Positions 5,280 to 16,852 of a stretch of DNA of 64,000 nucleotides are shown piece after piece. The translations under genes and the position numbers were made by a program. The stretch is from Bradyrhizobium mercantei (GTDB taxonomy: Bacteria; Pseudomonadota; Alphaproteobacteria; Rhizobiales; Xanthobacteraceae). The notes beneath the pieces were generated by a model, which saw only the letters and a list, made by a program, of their open reading frames with translations, was not told the DNA's origin and made no database searches. Each line of letters opens with the position of its first letter. Position 1 is the first letter of the stretch. Where the stretch lies: NCBI RefSeq assembly GCF_001982635.1, contig NZ_MKFI01000001.1, positions 1,444,891-1,508,890 of the forward strand, in the 5' to 3' direction.

Positions 5280-5588
5280 CTACTGCGGCGGGATCGGATT
5301 TGCCGGTTGAGCGGGCTTGGGGCCAGGTGGAGCAGGCTCAATCGGCGCCTTGGGCTCGGTTGGCATCACCTTCGCGCCGGCCGCACGCGCCGCCTCGCCA
5401 GTCGTTGAATAATTGGCGGAAGCGGCCGGCTGCACCTTCGGCTTGCTCCACGGACCGTGGTCGACGACCAGCATGCCCAGCACGCCGAGGATCGCAACCA
5501 CTGCCGCAACCAGCAGCGGCGTGCCACCATGCCGATTTCGATGCTTGACCGAACCGCCTTCGGTCATGCCGTGCGCCTGCATTGTCAT
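5280..5588 (-). CDS. Single-span membrane protein with proline-rich tail
   Basis: The 102-residue product has a short basic N-terminus (KHRNRHGG), one transmembrane helix (LLVAAVVAILGVLGMLVV) and a C-terminal half rich in Pro, Ala and Lys (PTEPKAPIEPAPPGPKPAQP). It would be anchored in the inner membrane with the tail in the periplasm. I chose the ATG at 5588, which follows GGAGGAG; the frame extends upstream without support. The tail resembles envelope-spanning linkers, but function is unknown. Confidence 0.6.
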   Translation of the reverse strand: MTMQAHGMTEGGSVKHRNRHGGTPLLVAAVVAILGVLGMLVVDHGPWSKPKVQPAASANYSTTGEAARAAGAKVMPTEPKAPIEPAPPGPKPAQPANPIPPQ

Positions 5589-5786
5589 TGGTCGTCTCCT
5601 CCACCGAGACAAGCCGCGAGCCGCGCGCAGGTTTCCTGTTCCCCGATATGAAAGCGAGGCATCTCGGTGGAACCAATCCACAGCTACCGAATTTCCACGA
5701 TATGCGGTCGCTACCGGCCGTTCAAAGCATCCCCGGATTGCCAAAGGTGACGGCACCTGGGCTTCAGTGAAACCGCGGCACGGCAC

Positions 5787-6047
5787 ATGAGCTCCGAAAC
5801 ACCCGAGTCTCCGCTTCAACCCACGCTCGGTGAGCGAGCGATCGACACCGCGACGGACGTTTCTCGCACCATCACGGAGGTGTCGGACGGACTTCGCGCG
5901 GCCGCCGATCGCCTCAGCGAGGCCGTCGCAAGCTCGCGCCGGCCGGGCGGAGCCCTCGCCACCGTAAGCGCGGTCACGCGGGAAGCCCCGCTCGCAAGTC
6001 TGTTCGTCGCGTTTCTGCTCGGCGTTGCCGTCGCGCGCCGGCGCTAG
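5787..6047 (+). CDS. Small membrane-anchored helical protein (ElaB/DUF883-like shape)
   Basis: This 86-residue protein has a long amphipathic helix (about residues 16-55, TATDVSRTITEVSDGLRAAA...) and a C-terminal hydrophobic anchor ending in arginines (ASLFVAFLLGVAVARRR). The layout resembles ElaB/YqjD/DUF883 proteins, which tether ribosomes or other partners to the inner membrane under stress. The family link rests on shape, not on a diagnostic motif. Confidence 0.55.
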   Translation: MSSETPESPLQPTLGERAIDTATDVSRTITEVSDGLRAAADRLSEAVASSRRPGGALATVSAVTREAPLASLFVAFLLGVAVARRR

Positions 6048-6072
6048 ACGTCGATGCGCCGCGAATGCCGTT

Positions 6073-6426
6073 CTAGAACTTGCCCTTTGTGGCGTCCTTG
6101 GTCGCGGACATCACGCTTCCGCTGATCTGCCGCATGTGCTCGCCGGCGTTGGTGAACTGGCTGCGCAGGAATTCCGACTGGATCCGCATCGCCTCCTGCA
6201 GATCGGTCGCGTGCACGAGCTTGCGGGCATGCTCGAAGGCCGCCTTCATGTTCTGCTCGGTGAACGACAGCGCCTGTTTGGAAATTTCGGTACCGGTGCC
6301 CGGCATCGCCGTCATCGACTTGCTGGCGGCATCAAAGAACAGGCTGAAGGCCTGTTCGGCCTGGTCGATGGTTTTCTCCGCGAGATCGCGCAACTCGGCG
6401 GGAACTTCAAGCTTCGGCTCAATCAT
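6073..6426 (-). CDS. Phasin family protein
   Basis: The 117-residue protein is almost wholly amphipathic helix. It carries phasin hallmarks: PAELRDLAEKTIDQAEQAFS, then a second helix with SFTEQNMKAAFEHARKLVHA and DLQEAMRIQSEFLRSQF. Phasins coat polyhydroxyalkanoate granules and control their number and size; a few act as chaperones. The start at 6426 is preceded by CAGGGGG. The gene stands alone between small genes of unknown function, so granule association is inferred from the family. Confidence 0.85.
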   Translation of the reverse strand: MIEPKLEVPAELRDLAEKTIDQAEQAFSLFFDAASKSMTAMPGTGTEISKQALSFTEQNMKAAFEHARKLVHATDLQEAMRIQSEFLRSQFTNAGEHMRQISGSVMSATKDATKGKF

Positions 6427-6653
6427 GATCGCGCCCCCTGAAATAAGTGTCCGGCACGTTAGCATAGAATGTGACGGCGTCAGCGCCGTATCGCGACCCA
6501 TGCCAGGCCATGCCCGTTCGGCAGCCAAGGAAAAATTGCCTAGTCACGGCCGGACGGGGCCGCCGGCCGATTCCAATCATGTCAGCACTGTGGCATAGTG
6601 ATTCGGCTTTCTTCGTTGGTCGCGTTCGCGTCTCTGGGGAATAAGGGGATCCG

Positions 6654-6839
6654 ATGCTGCGCGCCGTTCGTCCAACACCGACCTGCACACGATTCAAGAC
6701 CAGCATAGAAATGCCGTGCATGAAGTGCGGCACGCAAATGCGGCTCGCCTTGATCGAGCCGCGCGACCAAGTCTACGATGTGCTGACCTATCAGTGCACG
6801 CCCTGCAATGCCGGCGAAAGCTTCCTGAACGCGCGCTAG
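6654..6839 (+). CDS. Small zinc-ribbon protein
   Basis: A 61-residue product with two CxxC pairs: CMKCG (about residues 22-26) and YQCTPCNAG near residue 47-52. Together they form a likely zinc ribbon. AAGGGG precedes the ATG at 6654; an internal ATG at 6711 is possible and would start right at the first Cys pair. Short single-ribbon proteins like this are common in Bradyrhizobium-type genomes and have no assigned role. Confidence 0.6.
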   Translation: MLRAVRPTPTCTRFKTSIEMPCMKCGTQMRLALIEPRDQVYDVLTYQCTPCNAGESFLNAR

Positions 6840-6851
6840 GTTGCCGCCCGT

Positions 6852-7055
6852 TCAGTCGCTCAGCACGGCGGCCCCCGCCTCCGTCAACGCAGGCGCGTCG
6901 TCATGCAATTCGACCAGACCGAGCTCGGTGAGGATGCGCAGATCGTCGTCGCTGACCGGTGACAATTTGAGCCTGCCGGCCTGGATATCGCGAAGGGTCC
7001 AGCGCAAGCCGATAGCGCGTTCAAGCGGGAATTCAGCGAATGGGTTGTCTGCCAT
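6852..7055 (-). CDS. Small hypothetical protein, winged-helix-like
   Basis: The 67-residue product has the pattern RWTLRDIQAGRLKLSPVSDD followed by DLRILTELGLVELHDDAPAL and TEAGAAVL. The run of a helix, 'ELGLVEL', then a beta hairpin ending in 'LTEAG' looks like the end of a winged helix. It has a good GAGGCGA ribosome site before the ATG at 7055. It is too short to be a typical regulator; no family was recognised. Confidence 0.5.
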   Translation of the reverse strand: MADNPFAEFPLERAIGLRWTLRDIQAGRLKLSPVSDDDLRILTELGLVELHDDAPALTEAGAAVLSD

Positions 7056-7198
7056 TCGCCTCGACTAGTGCCGCATTTGGATCAGACTTAGTCTCTGCCG
7101 CGGCGGCTTCATGGACATCACAGATTGATGGCATGATGACGCGATCAGGTGCCCAGCACCTTGATCCCGTCATCGCTCCATGCGTCCCGCGCCGCCGC

Positions 7199-8332
7199 TC
7201 AGTAGCGGTAGGGGTCGATATCGAGCAGCGGGAATGCGCTGAACACGCTCGGCAGGTTGGTCGGCATCGCCGGATGCAGATAGGACTTGTCCAGTTCGGC
7301 GAAGCTGGTGACACCGAGCAGCCCGAGGCAGCGGATCACCTCATCCTCCAGCAATTCAAGCATCCGGACGATGCCTGCCTCGCCGGCCGCAGCGAGCGCC
7401 CAGCATTGCAGACGGCCGATCCCGACAAGGTCGGCCCCCGAGACGATCGCCTTCACGATGTCCGTGCCGCGGCAGATCGAGCCGTCGACCATGATCTTGG
7501 CACGGCCGGCGACGGCCTGAACGATCTCGGGCAGGACATGCATGGAGCCGCGGCCGTGGTCGAGCTGCCGTCCGCCATGATTTGAAACATAGATCCAGTC
7601 GACCCCGTGATCGAGGGCGATTTTGGCGTCTTCGGCGGTAGCGATGCCCTTGAGAATGAGCGGAATCTTGAACTTGTCCTTGATCAACTTCACCGTTCGC
7701 CATTCCAGCCCCTTCTGGAAATCGCCGCCGGTGGCGCGGATGCGGCTTTCGCGGACATAGCGCTTGGCGATGTCGCGCTCACGCCGGCTGTAGTGGGCGG
7801 TGTCCACGGTGAGGCAGAACGCGGCGTAACCGTTGTCGATGCTGCGGCTGACCACATCCTCGACGAAAGCATCGTCGCCCCGCACATAGAGCTGGAAGAT
7901 GCGCAAGGCGTCAGGCGCAGCCTTGGCGGTGTTCTCCAGTCCAGGCTCGGACACCGAGCTCAGCATATGGGCCGCACCGAACGTCCCCGCTCCGCGCGCG
8001 ACGGCCGCACCCGCATCCGGATCGAAGATCTCGAGCGCGCCAACCGGCGCGATCATCACGGGAAGCCGCAGCTTGCGCCCGAAAACCGTGGTGGAAGAAT
8101 CGACGTTGATGACGTTGCGCAGGACGCGCGGCCGGAACGCGATCTCGTCGAGCGCCATTCTGTTGCGGCGCATCGTGGTCTCGGTCTCTGAGGCGCCGAC
8201 GATGTAATCCCAGGCGTTCTGGTTCAGCTTGGCGCGGGCCTTTTGCGCGAATTCGTGCAGGTTCTGGAATTCCTCGCCGCTGGCGCCGAGCTCGACATTG
8301 CGCGTCTGCCGAATGGGGGTCCCGTCATTCAT
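7199..8332 (-). CDS. FMN-dependent alpha-hydroxy-acid dehydrogenase/oxidase
   Basis: The 377-residue protein is a TIM-barrel flavoenzyme of the lactate dehydrogenase/glycolate oxidase family. The FMN-site strand PVMIAPVGAL is near residue 91. The active-site signature SNHGGRQLD (250-258) supplies the catalytic His252 and substrate-binding Arg255. The phosphate-binding region MVDGSICRGTDIVKA follows. Family members oxidise L-lactate, glycolate, mandelate or similar acids, passing electrons to oxygen or quinone. GGGAGAAG precedes the ATG. It stands alone between a small gene and a GlxA-type regulator, so the substrate is open. Confidence 0.88.
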   Translation of the reverse strand: MNDGTPIRQTRNVELGASGEEFQNLHEFAQKARAKLNQNAWDYIVGASETETTMRRNRMALDEIAFRPRVLRNVINVDSSTTVFGRKLRLPVMIAPVGALEIFDPDAGAAVARGAGTFGAAHMLSSVSEPGLENTAKAAPDALRIFQLYVRGDDAFVEDVVSRSIDNGYAAFCLTVDTAHYSRRERDIAKRYVRESRIRATGGDFQKGLEWRTVKLIKDKFKIPLILKGIATAEDAKIALDHGVDWIYVSNHGGRQLDHGRGSMHVLPEIVQAVAGRAKIMVDGSICRGTDIVKAIVSGADLVGIGRLQCWALAAAGEAGIVRMLELLEDEVIRCLGLLGVTSFAELDKSYLHPAMPTNLPSVFSAFPLLDIDPYRY

Positions 8333-8497
8333 GGTGTTTCTTCTCCCGATTTGGCCGGCACATTAGCCGCAGACAAACCGGAAAAGCTACCACCTTAACC
8401 CACGAATCCGGCCAGCGAAGGCCAGCTATTCGCTTGTGAGATAGATCGGATCTCGACGCGAAACGGCTGCGTCCGAACCGATCGCGCCCGAGGCGTG

Positions 8498-9517
8498 CTA
8501 GCTGCCCGAGAATCGGTTTCTGTACTCGGTCGGCGATACGCCGAGGTGGCGAAGGAACGCCCGCCGCATGCGTTCGTCATCGCCGAACCCTGCGCGCTTG
8601 GCGACCTCGACCACGCCACCGATCTGCCGGCTTTCGAGCAGCAAGCGCGCGGTCTCCACACGGAGCGCCTCGACGCCGCTCGCGGGTGTCATGCCGGTGC
8701 GGCTGACATAGGTCCGGGCAAACGTGCGCGGCGTCATGCCGGCCCTCTCCGCGAGAGTCTCGACCTTGAGGTCTTCGGTGATGTTCTCGATGATCCAGGC
8801 ATGCAGCGCGCTGAAGCGTCCCTCGACGTCGGACGCCTGGGCCGCAAGGACGGTCGAGAACTGGCTCTGACCGCCAGGCCGCTTCAGAAACACCACAAGT
8901 CTGCGCGCGACATCAAGCGCGATGGTATGGCCGAAATCCTCCTCGATCATGGCGAGCGCGAGGTCGATGCCGGCGCTGACACCGGCCGACGACCAGACCC
9001 GTCCGTCCTTGACGAAGATGGCGTTGGGCTCGACGCGGATGTTTGGAAAGTTGTCCTGCAGGCGCGGACAGTAGCGCCAGTGCGTTGCAGCACGCTTGCC
9101 GTCCAAGATCCCGGTCCAGGCCAGCGCAAAAGCGCCGAGGCATACCGACGCGATACGGCGCGCCTTCGGCAATGCTTCCGCAATCCACCCCATCAATTTG
9201 GCGTCGTTCCGGATCTTCCAAATGCCGGGCCCGCCGGGGATGACAAGCGTGTCGACCTCGACGGGAGCAACACTGTCGATCGGCGCCGTGTCGATCATCA
9301 TGCCGACATCGGTCGGCACCAATCCGCCCGCGGTCGACAGATAGGATATCGAGTAGCCGGGCCCGGGCAGCTCGATCGCTTCCAGTTCAGCGAACACCTG
9401 CGCCGGCCCGGAAATATCGAGCAAGGTCACGCCCGGAAAGGCGACGATCGCGATCGATCGCATCGCTTTCTTGTCGCGCGGCTCAGGTCGGGGCGCTTTG
9501 GCAGTTTTCGAGGGCAT
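8498..9517 (-). CDS. GlxA family transcriptional regulator (DJ-1/PfpI + AraC domains)
   Basis: The 339-residue protein has an N-terminal DJ-1/PfpI-like amidotransferase fold (about 20-190), with IVAFPGVTLLDISGPAQVF at the start and SVCLGAFALA as the nucleophile-elbow region (cysteine present). A C-terminal AraC helix-turn-helix pair follows (about 240-335, LAERAGMTPRTFARTY and VAKRAGFGDDERMRRAF). The family senses small nitrogen compounds or metabolites. It is divergent from the four-gene operon that starts at 9581, with about 60 bases between starts, so it is the likely regulator of that operon. Confidence 0.9.
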   Translation of the reverse strand: MPSKTAKAPRPEPRDKKAMRSIAIVAFPGVTLLDISGPAQVFAELEAIELPGPGYSISYLSTAGGLVPTDVGMMIDTAPIDSVAPVEVDTLVIPGGPGIWKIRNDAKLMGWIAEALPKARRIASVCLGAFALAWTGILDGKRAATHWRYCPRLQDNFPNIRVEPNAIFVKDGRVWSSAGVSAGIDLALAMIEEDFGHTIALDVARRLVVFLKRPGGQSQFSTVLAAQASDVEGRFSALHAWIIENITEDLKVETLAERAGMTPRTFARTYVSRTGMTPASGVEALRVETARLLLESRQIGGVVEVAKRAGFGDDERMRRAFLRHLGVSPTEYRNRFSGS

Positions 9518-9580
9518 ATTGTCCTTTAAGCCATTCGAGGCTGCCCTGTATAGCTCGCGGTGGAATTCTGGAGTTCTGCC

Positions 9581-10294
9581 ATGTCGCGAAATCTGGGCAG
9601 CGGATACGAGGCGATCAAATCGCCTTGGGCGGATTACGCGGTCTACAGCCTACCCGACGCCTCCCGGATCGAAGCCTGCGACCGTCAGCCGCTGATGGAC
9701 GCCATGAACGGCATCATTGCCGTCAACTGGCAGGCCACCGAGCCGCACTGGACAGCGACCTCCTCGCCCTTCGACAAGAAGTACAGCCTGATCCTCGTCT
9801 ATGACGGCTCTGGCCTCGTGGCGTTCTCGGTCTACCGCATCCTGCAGATGTCGGCCGGACTTGGAATCTATCGAAGCGGCACTGAAGTACTCCCGGCACA
9901 CCAGGGCCGCGGCCTCTACGGCTTCTTCACATCGGAAGTGTTGAAATGTTCGGGTGCGACCGAGAGAGCCGACGGCAACGTGCTCTATGGCTGGCGAACC
10001 CGCAATCCGATCGTCTGGGCGGCGAACGCTAAGATTTGCGAAAAAGTGTCTCCATCATTGCTCGACGATGCACAGGATCTCGCTTTGCAGGCGGCCTGTG
10101 TCGAGATGTGTACCTCGCTCTATCCGGGCAAGCCTCTCGAACTGCCCGACATGATCATGCGTGGCGCTTACGGCCACATTAAGCACCATCGGCAGGCCTA
10201 TCATGGCACCGCGTCGCTGGTCGATGCCGCGATGTCGCGCAAGATTCCGAATTCAGCGGATGCCCTTTTCTCGGTCGGTTACGCGAGGGTTTGA
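9581..10294 (+). CDS. GNAT-fold acyltransferase-like protein, first gene of N-hydroxylase operon
   Basis: The 237-residue product contains a GNAT-type core: a strand LILVYDGSGLVAFSVYRI, then LPAHQGRGLYGFFTSEVL, which matches the acetyl-CoA-binding motif A (Q-G-R-G), then a late segment RTRNPIVWAANAKI. Length is greater than a plain GNAT and no closer family is recognised. The ATG at 9581 follows TGGAG. Its stop overlaps the next start (TGATG), so it is coupled to the MFS gene. In this operon it could acylate or otherwise tailor the small molecule made by the N-hydroxylase-like enzyme; this is inference. Confidence 0.6.
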   Translation: MSRNLGSGYEAIKSPWADYAVYSLPDASRIEACDRQPLMDAMNGIIAVNWQATEPHWTATSSPFDKKYSLILVYDGSGLVAFSVYRILQMSAGLGIYRSGTEVLPAHQGRGLYGFFTSEVLKCSGATERADGNVLYGWRTRNPIVWAANAKICEKVSPSLLDDAQDLALQAACVEMCTSLYPGKPLELPDMIMRGAYGHIKHHRQAYHGTASLVDAAMSRKIPNSADALFSVGYARV

Positions 10295-11586
10295 TGTCGA
10301 TGCTCGGACAACAAGCGGTATACGCGCCGACGTCGCGCTTCACCGATCGCGCCTATCTGGCCTGGACCGCAGTGGCGATCGCCTACGCCATAGCCTTCCT
10401 GCAGCGCGTGTCGCCGCAATCGGTGAGCCTCAGCTTCATGCACGACTTCAACACCGACGCGGCCGGTGTTGCGATGCTCGCCTCGAGCTACTTCTGGGGC
10501 TACACCCTGATGCAGATTCCGGCCGGCCTCCTGGTCGACCGTTTCGGCGTCAAGCGCGTCGTCCTCGTCAGCATGATCGCCTCGTCGCTCGGCAGCGCCG
10601 CGTTCGCCTTGGCGCCGAACCTGCTCAATGTCTTTGCAGCGCGCCTGATCGTTGCCTGCGGTGACGCGCTGGTCTTCACCGCCCTCCTGAAACTCGTTGC
10701 GCAGAGCTTCGCGGACGAGCGGTTCGGCATGATGTCGGGCATCTCGCAGGTCTCCGGCTATGTCGGAGGCGTGATCGCGACCACGCCGCTTGCCGCCGCG
10801 GTCTCGGGATTCGGCTGGCGGGCCTGCTTCCTGTTCATCGCCTGCATCGGCCTCGCCAACCTCGCCTTCGCCAAGCTCGCGCTCAAGCCCGATCCGGCCT
10901 CGCACAGCAACAAGACGCTGAAGGGTGTGGTGCTCGCTGCGCGGCAATCGCTGGCCCATGTCGCGAACTGGGGCTGCGCAATGACCTTTGCGTCGCACTT
11001 CGCGGTCGTGACGACGCTGTCAGGCGTCTGGGGCATTCCGATGGTCGCCCACCTCTTCAATATCTCACCGACAGCTGCCGGTACGCCCCTGCTTGCCTTC
11101 ATGATCGGCAATGCACTCGGCTCGATCTTCCTGGGTCACGCGGCCGATCATGCCGCAGCGGCGCTCGACCGCGCGTTGATCGGCATTTGCGTGTTGCGCA
11201 TGCTGCTGATCGCGCTGCTGCTGCCGCCGATCGCCCAGACGTTTGGTCTCGCCTACGTCACCGTCGTGTTCACGGCGCTGGGCCTCGTCGCCGGCGGCAC
11301 CGTCCCGCTGGTGCTGAAATGCGTCAAGAAACTCTACACCGCCGACCTTATCGGTGTCGGGGCTTCCGTGAACACCACGGCCGCCGGAATCTTCGCCGGC
11401 GTTTCGCAGCCCATCATTGGCTTCGCAATGCTCGCTGCAAGCCACGCTTCCGGGACCGATGCCGTGCACAACACGGCCGCGATCGGTGACGGCGGCTACA
11501 GCGCCTTGATTGTCATTCTGCTTCTCATGTCGCTGCCGGGCATCGCTGGACCGCTGCTGATGAGAAGCAAGTTGATAGCTCGTTAG
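10294..11586 (+). CDS. MFS transporter
   Basis: The 430-residue protein has about 12 hydrophobic helices. The loop between helices 2 and 3 carries the MFS motif (GLLVDRFGVKRVV, matching G-x-L-x-D-R-x-G-x-R/K). The N-terminal half (LASSYFWGYTLMQIPAGLL) is like the anion-cation symporter/sugar-acid branch. The start at 10294 overlaps the upstream stop by one base. Placed between an acyltransferase-like and an N-hydroxylase-like gene, it may export the product or import the substrate of the operon. Direction of transport cannot be read from sequence. Confidence 0.85.
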   Translation: MSMLGQQAVYAPTSRFTDRAYLAWTAVAIAYAIAFLQRVSPQSVSLSFMHDFNTDAAGVAMLASSYFWGYTLMQIPAGLLVDRFGVKRVVLVSMIASSLGSAAFALAPNLLNVFAARLIVACGDALVFTALLKLVAQSFADERFGMMSGISQVSGYVGGVIATTPLAAAVSGFGWRACFLFIACIGLANLAFAKLALKPDPASHSNKTLKGVVLAARQSLAHVANWGCAMTFASHFAVVTTLSGVWGIPMVAHLFNISPTAAGTPLLAFMIGNALGSIFLGHAADHAAAALDRALIGICVLRMLLIALLLPPIAQTFGLAYVTVVFTALGLVAGGTVPLVLKCVKKLYTADLIGVGASVNTTAAGIFAGVSQPIIGFAMLAASHASGTDAVHNTAAIGDGGYSALIVILLLMSLPGIAGPLLMRSKLIAR

Positions 11587-11611
11587 TGTCGTTATGAGTG
11601 TAGGGGGTGTT

Positions 11612-12367
11612 ATGGAGCGCTTGTTTTTGAGAAAAGGCGAAGTCGCGTCAAACTTTCCGGTCTCCAGCTGGCAAAGCGTGATGTTTTCCGAGTTCGAAGC
11701 GCAGATGAGCAGCGAGGCCAGGCCGTTTCCTTGCGTGTTCGGGGTGACCGGACATCGCCAGGACCAGCTCCGCTACCTCTTTCTCGATCCCTATGATGTC
11801 GCGGTGCTCGGCGAACAGCTCGCACAATATGTCTCCGAGGCCCGCTCGTTCGGTCCCAATACATCGCTGATCGTGTTCACGCGGCCCCGCCCGGTGCAGA
11901 CGCTCGATGCCTATTATCGCAAGATGTGGCTGACGCTCGACCAGCTCGCGCGCCTGGACAAGAACCCGTGGCCTTCGGAGATTCCGGAGCAGATCGACCA
12001 CCCGATGTGGGAGTTCTCGTTCGCGGGCGAGCCGATCTTCGTGGTGTGCACGACACCCGCGCATGTGATGCGCCAAAGCCGCCGATCCAGTGCATTCATG
12101 CTCACCTTTCAGCCGCGCTGGGTGTTCGAGAAAATTCTCGGGACCGAAAAGGCGGCGAATGCCGCGTTCGCCGAGGTACGCAAGCGTCTGATCCCTTACG
12201 ACAGCGCGAGCCCCTCTCCGCTTCTTGGTCGCTACGGCGCAACCGACGGCCGCGAATACCTGCAGTACTTCCTGCACGACGACAACAATGCGAGCTCAGG
12301 CTGTCCTTTCGCCAAGCTCGCGCAGAACAAGGCGCCACCCATCGCGAACAAGGAACAGGCAGCATGA
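11612..12367 (+). CDS. YqcI/YcgG (GntA-type) family protein, putative N-hydroxylase
   Basis: The 251-residue protein fits the YqcI/YcgG family: an early ARPFPCVFGVTGHRQDQLRY (about 36-55), then SFGPNTSLIVFTRP, the middle DHPMWEFSFAGEPIFVV, and a C-terminal GCPFAKLA. One member, GntA from cyanobacteria, is a haem-dependent N-hydroxylase in guanitoxin synthesis; most of the family is uncharacterised. AGGGGGTG precedes the ATG at 11612 and is better than an in-frame ATG at 11594. The stop overlaps the cupin start. I infer an N-oxygenation role by homology; the substrate is unknown and it need not be guanitoxin-related. Confidence 0.75.
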   Translation: MERLFLRKGEVASNFPVSSWQSVMFSEFEAQMSSEARPFPCVFGVTGHRQDQLRYLFLDPYDVAVLGEQLAQYVSEARSFGPNTSLIVFTRPRPVQTLDAYYRKMWLTLDQLARLDKNPWPSEIPEQIDHPMWEFSFAGEPIFVVCTTPAHVMRQSRRSSAFMLTFQPRWVFEKILGTEKAANAAFAEVRKRLIPYDSASPSPLLGRYGATDGREYLQYFLHDDNNASSGCPFAKLAQNKAPPIANKEQAA

Positions 12368-12684
12368 CCCGGATCATCGCAAGCACGAAGACCGAATTTG
12401 CCATCGATCCGGAGATACTGAACCTGCTCCCGGCCCAGGGCTCCGTCGAGTTGCAGCATGATGCGGCCGGCAAGGTGCATCAGTTCCATACCCACCCCGT
12501 CGACGAAATCCTGATGATCATCAGCGGCAGGCTGAACTTCATCTGGGACGGCGGCGAGCGGGTGGTCGGCGCGGGCGACACCATCCTGCTGCCGGCCGGC
12601 ACCCGGCATCAATCCGAGGCGCTCGAGGGTGGTGCGATCTACGTGATCGCGACGCAGCCGCCCGCCAAGCCGATGAACAACTGA
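12364..12684 (+). CDS. Small single-domain cupin
   Basis: This 106-residue protein is a compact cupin with both motifs intact: H42-x-H44-xxx-E48 (QFHTHPVDEIL) and PAGTRH with His82, giving a full 3-His/1-Glu metal site. Its start overlaps the stop of the putative N-hydroxylase by ATGA. Cupins next to N-hydroxylases catalyse N-N bond formation or further oxidation in several natural-product pathways (for example the cupin half of hydrazine synthetases), so a metal-dependent step on the hydroxylated product is plausible. It ends the operon. Confidence 0.8.
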   Translation: MTRIIASTKTEFAIDPEILNLLPAQGSVELQHDAAGKVHQFHTHPVDEILMIISGRLNFIWDGGERVVGAGDTILLPAGTRHQSEALEGGAIYVIATQPPAKPMNN

Positions 12685-12707
12685 GATCAAGGGAAAACGC
12701 GAACACC

Positions 12708-12890
12708 TCAGGACAGTGAAGGATCGCGCGGCGGTTCAACCGCCAAACGTTCGACCAGCTCGATGACCTCGCAACGCTGGTCGGGCGCAAGCCGAAGGAA
12801 GGCCTTCAACAGTCGCAGGCTTTCCAGTGTTTCGCTCGATGGAGCTCCGAGCTTGTTCTGCAGCTCTGCAACATATGTGGGATTTTTCAT
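12708..12890 (-). CDS. Small helical hypothetical protein
   Basis: The 60-residue protein (MKNPTYVAELQNKLGAPSSE, then LRLLKAFLRLAPDQRCEVIE) is charged and mostly helical. The ribosome site AAGGTG precedes the ATG at 12890. It is divergent from the next small gene with 25 bases between starts, so the two share a promoter region. The segment LAPDQRCEVIELVERLA resembles the helix that ends many short regulator-like proteins, but no family is certain. Confidence 0.55.
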   Translation of the reverse strand: MKNPTYVAELQNKLGAPSSETLESLRLLKAFLRLAPDQRCEVIELVERLAVEPPRDPSLS

Positions 12891-12915
12891 CTCGCACCTT
12901 AAGTGAGGATTACGA

Positions 12916-13101
12916 ATGGCATACCCAGGTAAACGTGAAGGCTTGGCCCAGAAGGTCGACACCGCGGCGCAAGAGGCCGAACGCCTCGGCCTGACCACGG
13001 CAACCCTGATACTCCGGATGGCCCGCCTCGAGATTGATCGCGCGGAGCCCGAGGAAGTTGAAAGTATGCCAAGGAACAACTTGCGCAGCAAGCCGAACTG
13101 A
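12916..13101 (+). CDS. Small hypothetical protein
   Basis: A 61-residue protein beginning MAYPGKREGLAQKVDTAAQE with a likely helix (RLGLTTATLILRMARLEI) and a basic C-terminus. GTGAGG lies before the ATG at 12916. It is paired head-to-head with the 60-residue gene. No family is recognised; the two may form a small regulatory or toxin-antitoxin-like pair, but divergent orientation argues against a classical toxin-antitoxin operon. Confidence 0.5.
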   Translation: MAYPGKREGLAQKVDTAAQEAERLGLTTATLILRMARLEIDRAEPEEVESMPRNNLRSKPN

Positions 13102-13181
13102 GTTCCGGAAACGGGCGAGTTCCAGCTTGAGGGCCGTCGGCGCGCGCCGAAGGCCGGACGGTGTCCGGACGACATCCTGCG

Positions 13182-13204
13182 AGGCGAGAGGCCTTCTCTC
13201 GCCT
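13182..13204. terminator. Stem-loop between convergent genes
   Basis: A perfect 9-bp stem (AGGCGAGAG with CTCTCGCCT, loop GCCTT) lies between two converging genes. No T-run follows directly, so it may act as a bidirectional pause or RNA-end stabiliser and not as a strong intrinsic terminator. Confidence 0.4.
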
Positions 13205-13254
13205 ACGCGCAGGTCGCTTTTCCGATATTTGATCTTCGCTGGCGGCTGATCGAG

Positions 13255-14514
13255 CTAGCCGGTGTTGCCGGCCTTGCCGAACGCACCAGCCTCCGTCAAC
13301 GCTGCGATGCGCCGGTCGTCGTAGCCAAGCGTCTTGCTCAACACGTCCCGCGTGTGCTGACCGAGCAGCGGAGCGGCAACAGGATCGACCGTCGGCGTCA
13401 GGCTCATATGGACCGGCGACTCGATGTTCGGAACCGAGCCGGCGGTCGGATGCGCGATTTTGCTCAGACGATGGCGATCGCGCACCTCGGGTGCGTTGAA
13501 CCCCTCCTCCACGGTCCGCAGATAGCCGACCGGAATATTGGCCTTCTTCATCTTCGCCATCCAGTGCTCGAGCGTATCGCTCGCAAACACGCTGGCGATG
13601 ATGCCGCGCAGCTTCTCCTTGTTGGCCGTCCGCGCCTTGCGGTGAGCAAACTCGGGGTCGGTGACGAGATCCGGACGCTCCAGCACGTCGGTGACAAGCC
13701 GGCGATAGAGCCGGTCGTTGGCACAGGCCATGTAGAGCGGTCCGTCGGACGCCCGGTAGACGCCGACGGTCGGTGAACCGTTCGGAGAGTTGCCGAAGCG
13801 ACCGGGATTGTTGCCGTTGATGAGATAAGCCATGCCGTAGAAGCCGGTCATCGACACCGCGGTGTCGATCAGCGCGACCTCGACCTGCTGGCCGCGACCG
13901 AGCCGATCACGCGCAATCAGCGCCAGCAGGATGGCGTTGCAGGCCGACATTCCCGTCGCCATGTCCACGATCGGAGGACCGGTGCGCACCGGCTCGCCAT
14001 CCGGAAAACCGTTGAGCGACATGAAACCGCTTTCGGCCTGCGTGATCGGGTCGAAGCCCGGGCGCAGCGCAAATTCGCCCTTGCGGCCGTAGGCGGAGAT
14101 TGAGCAATAAATCAGCCGCGGATTGGTCGGCGCCACCGACGCATAATCGAGACCGAATTTCTTCATCACGCCACCGGAGAAGTTCTCCACCACGACGTCG
14201 GCCTTGGCAATCAACGCGCGCGCGACTTCGAGCGCTGCCGGATTGTTGAAATCGAGCGCAATGCCGCGCTTGTTGCGATTGAGGCTCAGATACGCCGCGC
14301 TCTCCCCGCCGATTTCGGCGTGCTCATAGGCCCGCGTGTCATCACCACCGTCCGGATTCTCGATCTTGATGACCTCGGCCCCGAAGTCGGCCAGCGTCTG
14401 CGTGCAGGCCGGGCCGGCGACGACGCGGGTGAAGTCGACGACCAGCAGGCCATCGAGCGCCGTCGGAACTCCCTCCCCGCGCGGCGCGCGCTCCGGCAGT
14501 TCTGGTCTGGTCAT
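13255..14514 (-). CDS. CaiB/BaiF family CoA-transferase
   Basis: The 419-residue protein is a class III CoA-transferase. The N-terminal LLVVDFTRVVAGPACTQTLADF is followed by FGAEVIKIENPDGGDDTR. The catalytic Asp lies in PPIVDMATG (near residue 180), and the C-terminal part has VPVGYLRTVEE-like sequence (IPVGYLRTVEEGFNAPEV). The family moves CoA between carboxylic acids such as formate/oxalate, succinate/malate or carnitine. AGAGGAAG precedes the ATG. It has no obvious operon partner here, so donor and acceptor are unknown. Confidence 0.9.
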   Translation of the reverse strand: MTRPELPERAPRGEGVPTALDGLLVVDFTRVVAGPACTQTLADFGAEVIKIENPDGGDDTRAYEHAEIGGESAAYLSLNRNKRGIALDFNNPAALEVARALIAKADVVVENFSGGVMKKFGLDYASVAPTNPRLIYCSISAYGRKGEFALRPGFDPITQAESGFMSLNGFPDGEPVRTGPPIVDMATGMSACNAILLALIARDRLGRGQQVEVALIDTAVSMTGFYGMAYLINGNNPGRFGNSPNGSPTVGVYRASDGPLYMACANDRLYRRLVTDVLERPDLVTDPEFAHRKARTANKEKLRGIIASVFASDTLEHWMAKMKKANIPVGYLRTVEEGFNAPEVRDRHRLSKIAHPTAGSVPNIESPVHMSLTPTVDPVAAPLLGQHTRDVLSKTLGYDDRRIAALTEAGAFGKAGNTG

Positions 14515-14828
14515 GATCTGACGCTTCCTCTGTTATTTTATCAGGCGAAATACCGCGCCCTTTGGCAAGACCGGCGCTGCTCGCCTTTTAGCGGAAGCCC
14601 ATCACCAAAACCAAACCCGGATTTTGCAGGGCGGGACCTTCGTCTGACATGGCTGTCATCGGCCAGGACGGTCCCGCGGTGCGGGCAGCACCGGCATGGT
14701 CGGATTGTGCGAATGTCGAGGAAACCTGCCGGATAGCGATCTGTCGGGGGACCGCCCGGCGGAAGACACACATATTGACGGGTAGCGACGCCCGTCGCTA
14801 CCCGCCTTCATCATGGAGAGCAGTCGCG
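14515..14828. other. Intergenic stretch with one hairpin
   Basis: No gene is supported here. Apart from the hairpin at 14779-14804, which belongs to the leftward gene ending at 14829, nothing stands out. The 3' part is transcribed as the tail of that gene and the 5' part holds the promoter side of the CoA-transferase gene. Confidence 0.5.
14779..14804 (-). terminator. Strong hairpin after the GFA-family gene
   Basis: A perfect inverted repeat (CGGGTAGCGACG with CGTCGCTACCCG) begins about 24 bases past the stop of the leftward gene. There is no clear T-tract, so it is a probable transcript end or stabilising hairpin. Confidence 0.5.
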
Positions 14829-15251
14829 CTATTCAGCGATCACTTCACCGGAGCCGCCGAACTCGGCCGGAAAGTCCTTCAACTTCGGCAGGCCATCGCG
14901 TATCGGCAGCACCGCCTCGGAATAGTTGACGTGAACGCCAGGGCTGAACTTCAGCGTCGGGATCGTCGCCGTGAACACGTCGACGAGCCCAAGCGTCGGG
15001 TGGTTGGTCATCAAGTGGCCGCCGCACTTGGTGCAGTATTTGCGCTGGCTCATCGCGGTCTTTTCGAAGGTTTCGATATGATCGGCGCCCTTGGTGACCT
15101 CGACGGCCTCGGGCTTCCAGAGGCTGAACGCATTCACCGGACCGCCGGACCAGGAACGGCATGAACGGCAGTGGCAGTAGCCCATCGCCTCAGGTTCTCC
15201 CGTGACCTTGAGTTCGACAGCGCCGCAAAAGCAGTTTCCAGTGTGATTCAT
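14829..15251 (-). CDS. GFA family (glutathione-dependent formaldehyde-activating fold) protein
   Basis: The 140-residue protein has the GFA zinc fold: NCFCGAVELKV near the N-terminus, the CHCRSCRSWSGG site (about 27-38), and KYCTKCGGHLMTNH (about 70-84). These cysteines bind structural and catalytic zinc. The family includes Gfa (S-hydroxymethylglutathione synthase) and centromere protein V homologues; most bacterial copies have no proven substrate. A different, fuller Gfa lies in the XoxF cluster at 47750, so this copy probably does something else. AAGGAGA precedes the ATG. Confidence 0.88.
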   Translation of the reverse strand: MNHTGNCFCGAVELKVTGEPEAMGYCHCRSCRSWSGGPVNAFSLWKPEAVEVTKGADHIETFEKTAMSQRKYCTKCGGHLMTNHPTLGLVDVFTATIPTLKFSPGVHVNYSEAVLPIRDGLPKLKDFPAEFGGSGEVIAE

Positions 15252-15621
15252 CGGTCGATTCTCCTTGGGTGAATTTGATCGGACTCCGCGCCGGCATCGA
15301 CCCACGTTACTCGTGATGTTTGCGATGCTGGACAAGACGTAAACGGGCGTAGCCGCTGCGAACTCCCTTGTGGACGTACCAGACCATTCCCCGCGCAAGA
15401 GGCAATCACTGCACTCGAATGCAGGCAGGTCGTCGACACAAGCAAAGCTACATGAGAGTCCGCGCCGCTGTCGACCATCTTCGACACGGCCTGACCGGAC
15501 ACATCTGCCATCGCAGACAAGATGGAGCTCAGTGTGAGGCAATTGCACAGTGCCGCATGTGAAGATTGCCGGCGCGCCGGAAGCCTGCGCGGCGACCGGC
15601 ACGTCAGCACTTCACGCTAGA
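15252..15621. other. Intergenic region without a supported gene
   Basis: About 370 bases between two leftward genes. Short frames exist on both strands but none has a ribosome site or protein-like composition. The right part should hold the promoter of the GFA-family gene. Confidence 0.45.
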
Positions 15622-16197
15622 TCAGCATTGCCGGTCCTTTGCGGGAACTCGATTGACCGTGGCAAGCCCATACATCAGCGCCAGCCGATCCAGGCATTCC
15701 TTGAGACGCCGTGCAAAATAGTCCTGCCAGCGCTGCGTGCGCAGTCCGCGTCGCTGTCCAACCTGCTCCATGGTCATGCCGAGGATCAAGACGTCGTGCA
15801 CCAGCGCCGAACCGTCAGCGCCAAGCTCGTGCTCGGCGCGGTTCAAACGCAATGTCGCCTGGCGCTGCCCCTCCGTGATCGCCTCGCGTTGCTGACCGCC
15901 ATCGACGTATTCGCGTGTCGTATCCACCGCGCGAGGGCCGCGCTCGGCCTTTTCCCAATCGTACTGGAAGGCCCGACCGCTCCGATACTGCGTGTCGTCG
16001 ATCTGCCGGTGTGCGTGCAGCCGTCCCAGCGGATCGCTACGGATCGAGCGAAACGCCACGATCTTATCGCCGGGCTCGAGCGCAAGGGGATCGTCCACCT
16101 CGATGGTCGCCACCTCGGCATTAAAGGGCAGATCCCGGGAGCACCGGTCATGTGTTCCTGCGGGATCGTATGGCTTCCGGCGTTTTGCGCGCGGCAT
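15622..16197 (-). CDS. Hypothetical phage-like protein (possible DUF6456-type)
   Basis: The 191-residue protein is basic at the N-terminus (MPRAKRRKPYDPAGTHDRCS). It has a central helix-rich part (YRSGRAFQYDWEKAERGPRA) and a C-terminal region MTMEQVGQRRGLRTQRWQDY that looks like a sigma-region-4-type helix-turn-helix. Proteins of this shape, including DUF6456-type ones, occur in alphaproteobacterial prophages next to gcrA genes. The start follows a strong GGAGGTAA. It lies downstream of the gcrA-like gene and is probably co-transcribed with it. Confidence 0.6.
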   Translation of the reverse strand: MPRAKRRKPYDPAGTHDRCSRDLPFNAEVATIEVDDPLALEPGDKIVAFRSIRSDPLGRLHAHRQIDDTQYRSGRAFQYDWEKAERGPRAVDTTREYVDGGQQREAITEGQRQATLRLNRAEHELGADGSALVHDVLILGMTMEQVGQRRGLRTQRWQDYFARRLKECLDRLALMYGLATVNRVPAKDRQC

Positions 16198-16291
16198 TGG
16201 TTACCTCCAAGACCTCTGATGATGGGCGCGCGGAGGCTTCCGCGCGACCGCGGTTGCGGGCCGACGTCCGTCGGCCGGGAGATGGATTCCC

Positions 16292-16852
16292 TCAGATGGC
16301 CTCGACGGCCTGAAGCCAGGCGTCGCTCAAGACTGGCCTCGCCGAGGCCTCGGGGTCGCGGCTCAGGTGAAAATGCGGGGAGCAGTAGCTCGAGTCCGGC
16401 CGGCACGGGTGACCGCAGAAGGTAACGGCTTCGCCGTCGGCATCCCCGCCATAGGGATAGCGGCAGTCTCCGCGCTTGAGGTCGAGCAGGGACAGGTGCC
16501 GCGGCTCGACTGCCGCGCAACGAAGCTGAGGCATCTCCTCCGGTTCGACGAAGATCTTCGGCCAGCGAAGCCAATCGGGCTTCAGCTCGGCCTGCCCCGC
16601 ACCGAGACGGCCGATCTTCGGAAGCTCCGGCAAGGCCGGTTTGGGCGGGTCGAGGTGCCCCGGCAGGGACGGCTCGAACCGACCGAGGCCCGCCAACCCC
16701 ATGCGCTGGGCCCGGCTGAGCGCCGCGTAACGTGTATAGGCCGTGTTGAAGGTTGCGTTGATCGCGTCAGCGATTTCCGAATAGGACAAGCCGCGGGCGC
16801 GCAGGTCCTGCAAGGCTGCCGAATGCTCCGGCAGCCAATTCATCATTTCCAT
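16292..16852 (-). CDS. GcrA family cell-cycle regulator (accessory copy)
   Basis: The 186-residue protein has both GcrA ends. The N-terminal HTH reads EHSAALQDLRARGLSYSEIA with NATF following. The C-terminal sigma-binding part has LLDLKRGDCRYPYGG, then FCGHPCRPDSSYCSPHFHL. The middle is Pro-rich and longer than in the core GcrA. GcrA binds RNA polymerase sigma-70 and activates promoters with methylated GANTC sites in Caulobacter and relatives; phages carry copies. This copy sits in a phage-like switch, divergent from an S24 repressor, so it is probably a phage-derived paralogue that redirects host transcription. Confidence 0.85.
   Translation of the reverse strand: MEMMNWLPEHSAALQDLRARGLSYSEIADAINATFNTAYTRYAALSRAQRMGLAGLGRFEPSLPGHLDPPKPALPELPKIGRLGAGQAELKPDWLRWPKIFVEPEEMPQLRCAAVEPRHLSLLDLKRGDCRYPYGGDADGEAVTFCGHPCRPDSSYCSPHFHLSRDPEASARPVLSDAWLQAVEAI

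Follow-up and report, generated by a model that had tools for sequence, protein, structure and literature searches.

The chalkophomycin and gramibactin systems are known to combine a YqcI/YcgG protein with an SznF-like cupin protein (PMC10849742, PMC9679993). According to the accessible parts of these reports, the YqcI/YcgG family member ChmN makes N-delta-hydroxyarginine and N-delta,N-omega-dihydroxyarginine (PMC10849742), and graminine derives from arginine, its N–N bond joining N-delta and N-omega (PMC10849742, PMC9679993, PMC6771848). Here we analyse a locus at positions 8498 to 12,684 of a 64,000-nucleotide stretch of contig NZ_MKFI01000001.1 of Bradyrhizobium mercantei (the window), in which a YqcI/YcgG gene, called the hydroxylase below, is followed by the gene of a small cupin. 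Like ChmN/ChmM and GrbE/GrbD, with which it is compared by description and not by the sequences of ChmN and GrbE, this pair unites a YqcI/YcgG N-oxygenase-family protein (GrbE is an AglA homologue) with a cupin-bearing partner (PMC10849742, PMC9679993). Unlike theirs, the partner is a single cupin of 106 residues, elsewhere a fused domain, and not an SznF-like protein. Their clusters also differ in that no open reading frame (ORF) of the size of a non-ribosomal peptide synthetase (NRPS) overlaps positions 5500–16500 of the window, where the longest listed ORF has 431 amino acids.

Operons of SznF-like oxygenase–cupin genes with YqcI/YcgG and NRPS genes were predicted from gene context in 2010 (PMC2922099). 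The accessible part of that paper has the same families as partners and guesses that the conserved YqcI/YcgG cysteine is an acyl anchor; neither a pair that stands alone nor a direct fusion was found in it. Among the listed matches of our literature search, which covered subscription journals thinly, there was no report of a stand-alone or fused YqcI/YcgG–cupin pair. The original prediction for this locus, made from the sequence alone, had presented the pathway as previously unknown. The logic of a YqcI/YcgG protein with an SznF-like partner is in fact already known, and the novelty is the compact pair and its fusion.

Conservation of the hydroxylase–cupin pair

The hydroxylase is found in 29 of 146 Bradyrhizobium genomes (E 1e-60) and the cupin in 30 (E 1e-15). 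The cupin is the next gene in all 29 hydroxylase-bearing genomes, where the last base of each hydroxylase match is also the first of the cupin match; the remaining cupin (G506) is a fragment beginning at base 4 of its contig. A scan of species genomes, in which the best 80 of 190 stretches encoding a relative were kept, gave 79 loci: 44 of Bradyrhizobium type (L011–L054; L037 is titled Hyphomicrobiales) and 35 outside the genus, from Rhodobacteraceae, Acidiphilium, Allorhizobium, Burkholderiales, Acetobacteraceae, Bacillota and Actinomycetota. A small cupin lies directly after the hydroxylase in 26 of the 35 outside loci, fusions included, and in five of these (L066, L077, L078, L079, from Geomicrobium, and L084) both are encoded by a single reading frame. 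In eight loci, all actinobacterial, a ChmM/SznF-like protein with a C-terminal cupin replaces the small cupin. These proteins are 46–79% identical to the copy in L088, itself the eighth, and a tblastn search with the latter (1e-3) matched no locus but these eight. The 3,001-base contig L089 carries neither kind of partner.

With the L078 fusion as query, 312 proteins were found, and among the 120 listed at least 65 are fusions by a rule of length and motif. For Priestia megaterium the listing has both a separate form (P0299) and a fused one (P0253). The tree unites the Bacillota fusions in a single clade (100/99) and groups the Acetobacteraceae fusion with the Pseudomonadota (95/90), which suggests that the hydroxylase and the cupin were fused probably twice; the placement of L077, which is a long branch, comes with a warning from the program. 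The 29/29 adjacency and the fusions rule out a chance gene neighbour.

The original prediction had proposed a four-gene system with a divergent regulator, arranged as follows.

8498..9517, minus strand: GlxA/FtrA-like regulator, divergent, with a DJ-1/PfpI domain and an AraC-type helix-turn-helix (Pfam)
9518..9530, no strand: conserved intergenic block ATTGTCCTTTAAG, possibly part of an operator or promoter (44-row alignment)
9546..9553, no strand: conserved intergenic block CTGTATAG, possibly a -10-like element (44-row alignment)
9581..10294, plus strand: ORF1, GNAT-fold protein without a Pfam family (AlphaFold model, fold matches)
10294..11586, plus strand: major facilitator superfamily (MFS) transporter (PF07690, E 1.8e-34)
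11612..12367, plus strand: YqcI/YcgG protein, predicted haem-thiolate guanidine N-oxygenase (PF08892, AglA match, residue map)
12364..12684, plus strand: small single-domain cupin with H42/H44/E48/H82 and Y93 (PF07883, alignment, model)

The order and packing of the four same-strand genes were confirmed, and the operon with its divergent regulator stands: all five genes are present at 44/44 fetched Bradyrhizobium-type loci. As a four-gene unit, the system holds within Bradyrhizobium only. ORF1 and this MFS transporter have no tblastn match (1e-5) in any of the 35 outside loci, and the unit conserved across phyla is therefore the two-gene hydroxylase–cupin pair. Two outcomes named in advance as counting against the prediction did not occur. 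The set recurs in many genomes and is not confined to one, and no cupin without a hydroxylase was found in the 146 genus genomes, barring the G506 fragment. The module is rare and patchy across the phylum; in 398 of its genomes, the YqcI/YcgG profile (E 1e-20) matches only this genome and one other, where the match is interrupted by a stop codon.

There are two broken cupins beside intact hydroxylases. In G493 (C20) the cupin is split into two pieces in different frames, and in L013 its match is truncated; these breaks could be sequencing errors or natural losses. Some YqcI/YcgG proteins carry other domains: three actinobacterial ones (P0334, P0341 and P0347) have a second, MbtH-like domain (PF03621), which fits an NRPS-linked use of the same enzyme, and in the 513-residue P0256 the YqcI/YcgG and cupin domains are accompanied by a third, PF21621.

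The predicted guanidine N-oxygenase

The window hydroxylase matches PF08892 with 217.2 bits (gathering cut-off 27; E 2.8e-64), in agreement with its original description as an N-hydroxylase-type protein. The narrower GntA label was dropped, the score against the GntA equivalog NF041366 being 57.3 bits for a cut-off of 145. The closest solved relative, and the only one found by sequence (E 5e-31), is AglA of the argolaphos pathway, a thiolate-haem guanidine N-hydroxylase (PMC12866846).

The residues named in that paper were located in an alignment comprising 38 rows of the family, AglA and three paralogues. The haem-ligand cysteine at AglA Cys44 is present in 38/38 rows, including the window protein (Cys41, numbered from the start at 11612), and the hydroxylase is predicted to bind haem. 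The catalytic pocket is retained: AglA Phe152, Arg166, Gln177, Arg179, Phe182 and Gln228 are found in 38/38 rows and Arg200 in 37/38. AglA, whose substrate is AMPn-Arg, carries Lys at position 225, whereas all 38 rows have Glu; of the 120 homologues listed for the L078 fusion, 116 show the motif E-x-x-Q-(Y/F). In AglA the substitution K225E allows N-delta hydroxylation of free L-arginine, with the new Glu holding the amino group (PMC12866846, accessible part), which suggests that the substrate of the hydroxylase carries a free amino group. The position of AglA Lys196 is variable: Bradyrhizobium, Acidiphilium and Allorhizobium have Phe, Rhodobacteraceae have Leu, bacilli have Lys, Gln or Arg, and Actinomycetota have Arg. 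The lineages may therefore not all use exactly the same substrate.

The paralogues at L002, L009 and L010 have Gln at the Lys225 position, and no cupin match (1e-3) is present near them in the fetched regions. A divergent paralogue (about 30%), at L130:5833-9191 in the same genome (contig C72) and at L131:11302-14754, has Asn for Gln177, Gln at AglA 225 and no cupin match beside it. An amino acid permease gene and a radical-SAM gene come after the B. mercantei paralogue and after one of the two G009 copies, which looks like a separate N-oxygenation pathway.

The small cupin and a possible route to an N–N bond

The window cupin has a single domain (PF07883) with the complete 3-His/1-Glu metal site of the original prediction. 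Its ligands H42, H44, E48 and H82, together with E29, Q31, D33, H39 and Y93, are invariant in 30/30 aligned cupins, which suggests catalysis. Small cupins can also bind ligands without catalysis, so the protein might instead be a sensor or a stability partner of the hydroxylase, the product being simply a hydroxyguanidine. The AglA product argolaphos B does retain its hydroxyguanidine (PMC12866846, accessible part), but the invariant residues make such a role improbable.

Several comparisons point to the N–N-forming cupins. Y93 aligns with Tyr459 of SznF, the N-nitrosourea synthase of streptozotocin, in which the His ligands and Tyr459 are essential (PMC11705231), and the spacing of H42/H44/E48/H82 equals that of His50/His52/Glu56/His90 in the hydrazine synthase PyrN. 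The SznF/ChmM profile gives the window cupin 18.8 bits, the best background cupin reaching 17.4. When the window cupin model (predicted local distance difference test score 91) was searched alone with VIA-align, the N–N-forming cupins RHS1, in the first row, and SznF were top-ranked. PyrN and RHS1, both hydrazine synthases, also exist as fused or stand-alone cupins, like those of the pair. They differ from the window cupin in having a MetRS-like ligase and a lysine N6-hydroxylase as partners; the eight proteins at the locus, to which the scan was confined, include neither, and RHS1 carries Asp at the first His. The triazine-forming cupin AzcA is among the Foldseek rows, and a literature search on it gave no useful lead. 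HamB, the ham-cluster cupin, was set aside as a comparison because it is reported, in the accessible part of its source, to be non-essential for valdiazen.

On this basis, we consider the balance to be about even that the pair N-hydroxylates the guanidine of arginine or a relative and that the cupin then rearranges the intermediate to an N–N product. The YqcI/YcgG protein, using haem and oxygen, would hydroxylate arginine, or a closely related molecule, on its guanidine nitrogen, and the small cupin would then likely convert the N-hydroxyguanidine by rearrangement into a product with an N–N bond; such a product, already raised by the original prediction, is plausible. The pair would thus do in compact form what SznF and ChmN/ChmM do, with neither a diiron domain nor an NRPS. 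In SznF, too, N-oxygenation precedes cupin rearrangement, with the His ligands and the Tyr459 position in common, but there N-oxygenation is the work of the diiron (HDO) domain, a role that would here pass to the haem YqcI/YcgG protein; no SznF-type HDO domain is joined to the window cupin, whose partner is the PF08892 protein.

Other results weigh against this route. PyrN variants H50A and H90A keep much activity, so that metal ligands in common prove little. The VIA-align ranks of RHS1 and SznF lie within 1 Z of generic cupins, which amounts to a tie, and with Foldseek the same model places SznF 27th and RHS1 32nd (N–N cupins 27th–33rd), after uncharacterized cupins and KdgF. An SznF-only query scores the window cupin at 13.3 bits against 24.1 for the best background cupin, and its area under the curve is 0.88 with a background cupin in second place. 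Mann–Whitney and Fisher P values were set aside, since the sequences and genomes are not independent of one another. RHS1 is absent from the best 60 of 109 profile matches, which is not counted as evidence of difference. The scan of eight genes at the locus found no reductase. Because Lys196 is replaced by Phe or Leu, the substrate in Bradyrhizobium and Rhodobacteraceae may be other than free arginine. ChmM, the nearest described partner, is reported not to have shown N–N activity in vitro so far (PMC10849742).

The principal rivals are lyase chemistry and catabolism. In the former, rather unlikely in our estimation, the cupin would be a lyase or hydrolase that cleaves the N-hydroxyguanidine to an amine or urea and a small nitrogen species (for example hydroxylamine or nitric oxide, NO), forming no N–N bond. 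The complete 3-His/1-Glu site is compatible with many cupin reactions, and the window cupin has matches to the hydroxylaminobenzoate lyase PnbB in Pfam (19.7 bits, cut-off 26.9) and to mandelonitrile lyase in NCBIfam (23.9 bits, cut-off 140). Both scores are below threshold, the PnbB lead being rejected for this reason, and Y93 and the SznF/ChmM profile ranking favour the N–N group.

How YqcI/YcgG proteins and cupins divide the work of N–N bond formation is an open question, ChmM having shown no activity in vitro so far (PMC10849742), and the minimal pair, with the natural one-chain fusions of bacilli, would be a simple system with which to settle it. If the proposed rearrangement is right, N–N chemistry is not confined to NRPS clusters but takes in small free amino acids of Bradyrhizobium and bacilli, and NRPS-first searches would overlook such pairs.

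Companion genes and neighbouring features

Beside the pair in the 35 outside loci, the neighbours are APC permeases (13), LysE-type translocators (11), Lrp/AsnC regulators (7), isochorismatases (7) and GNAT proteins (5); one to three members of each neighbour cluster were identified via Pfam and the remainder by similarity. In Allorhizobium L055 the pair is accompanied by a GlxA-type regulator (47%), by an ATP-grasp protein that weakly matches amino-acid ligases and by a further protein whose MFS match is below threshold. These neighbours suggest a small amino-acid-like product, export and, in two lineages, GNAT tailoring.

Amino-acid derivatives are often the ligands sensed by GlxA-type regulators, which, with the neighbouring APC permeases and the occurrence in 29/146 genus genomes expected of an accessory trait, is consistent with catabolism: the MFS transporter would import a guanidino or N-hydroxy amino acid of plant or soil origin, the GNAT protein and the cupin would process it for degradation or detoxification, and the regulator would sense it. 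We consider this unlikely, since LysE-type translocators in bacilli suggest export, and the YqcI/YcgG members named as characterized in the accessible part of PMC12866846 belong to biosynthetic pathways.

If the pair instead makes an N–N product, ORF1 of Bradyrhizobium would act on it by acylation or for self-protection, and the product would be exported by the MFS transporter under the control of the GlxA-type regulator. More tentatively, the haem protein and the cupin, as two small proteins or one fused, might form an N–N synthase yielding, from arginine or a relative, a free diazeniumdiolate or N-nitroso amino acid without NRPS or diiron enzyme, exported in Bradyrhizobium and possibly an NO-releasing rhizosphere signal or a metallophore. 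With plant-root material, NO can be released from graminine and from its siderophores (PMC6771848), and a symbiont producing such a compound would therefore be of wide interest.

No Pfam family was found for ORF1; its AlphaFold model has a GNAT fold, in agreement with the fold matches. Close ORF1 orthologues are confined to the 29 genomes that have the hydroxylase. A paralogue near 30% occurs additionally in six of these and as the sole copy in one further genome. The paralogue elsewhere in the B. mercantei genome (L093:3233-3955, minus strand; 30%) has no Pfam match and an invariant WRTRNP motif; its neighbourhood gives no clue to its role, and with ORF1 it is perhaps an undescribed GNAT family. 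The regulator scores 232.5 bits against FtrA NF006902, below the cut-off of 425, and is not assigned to FtrA. The intergenic alignment has 44 rows, the window and 43 of the 44 loci (L014, with a partial ORF1 match, was left out). In ATTGTCCTTTAAG, 12/13 bases are invariant, the first 11 among them, and in CTGTATAG 7/8; the conserved blocks in 9518–9553, between the regulator and ORF1, are likely a promoter or operator.

Just past the cupin, a 60-residue ORF at 12708–12890 (minus strand), without a Pfam match, has a tblastn match in 38/44 Bradyrhizobium-type loci (53–98%). Upstream of the YqcI paralogue in L130 lie two ORFs, each in its own frame, with matches to LRR and NEL effector families.
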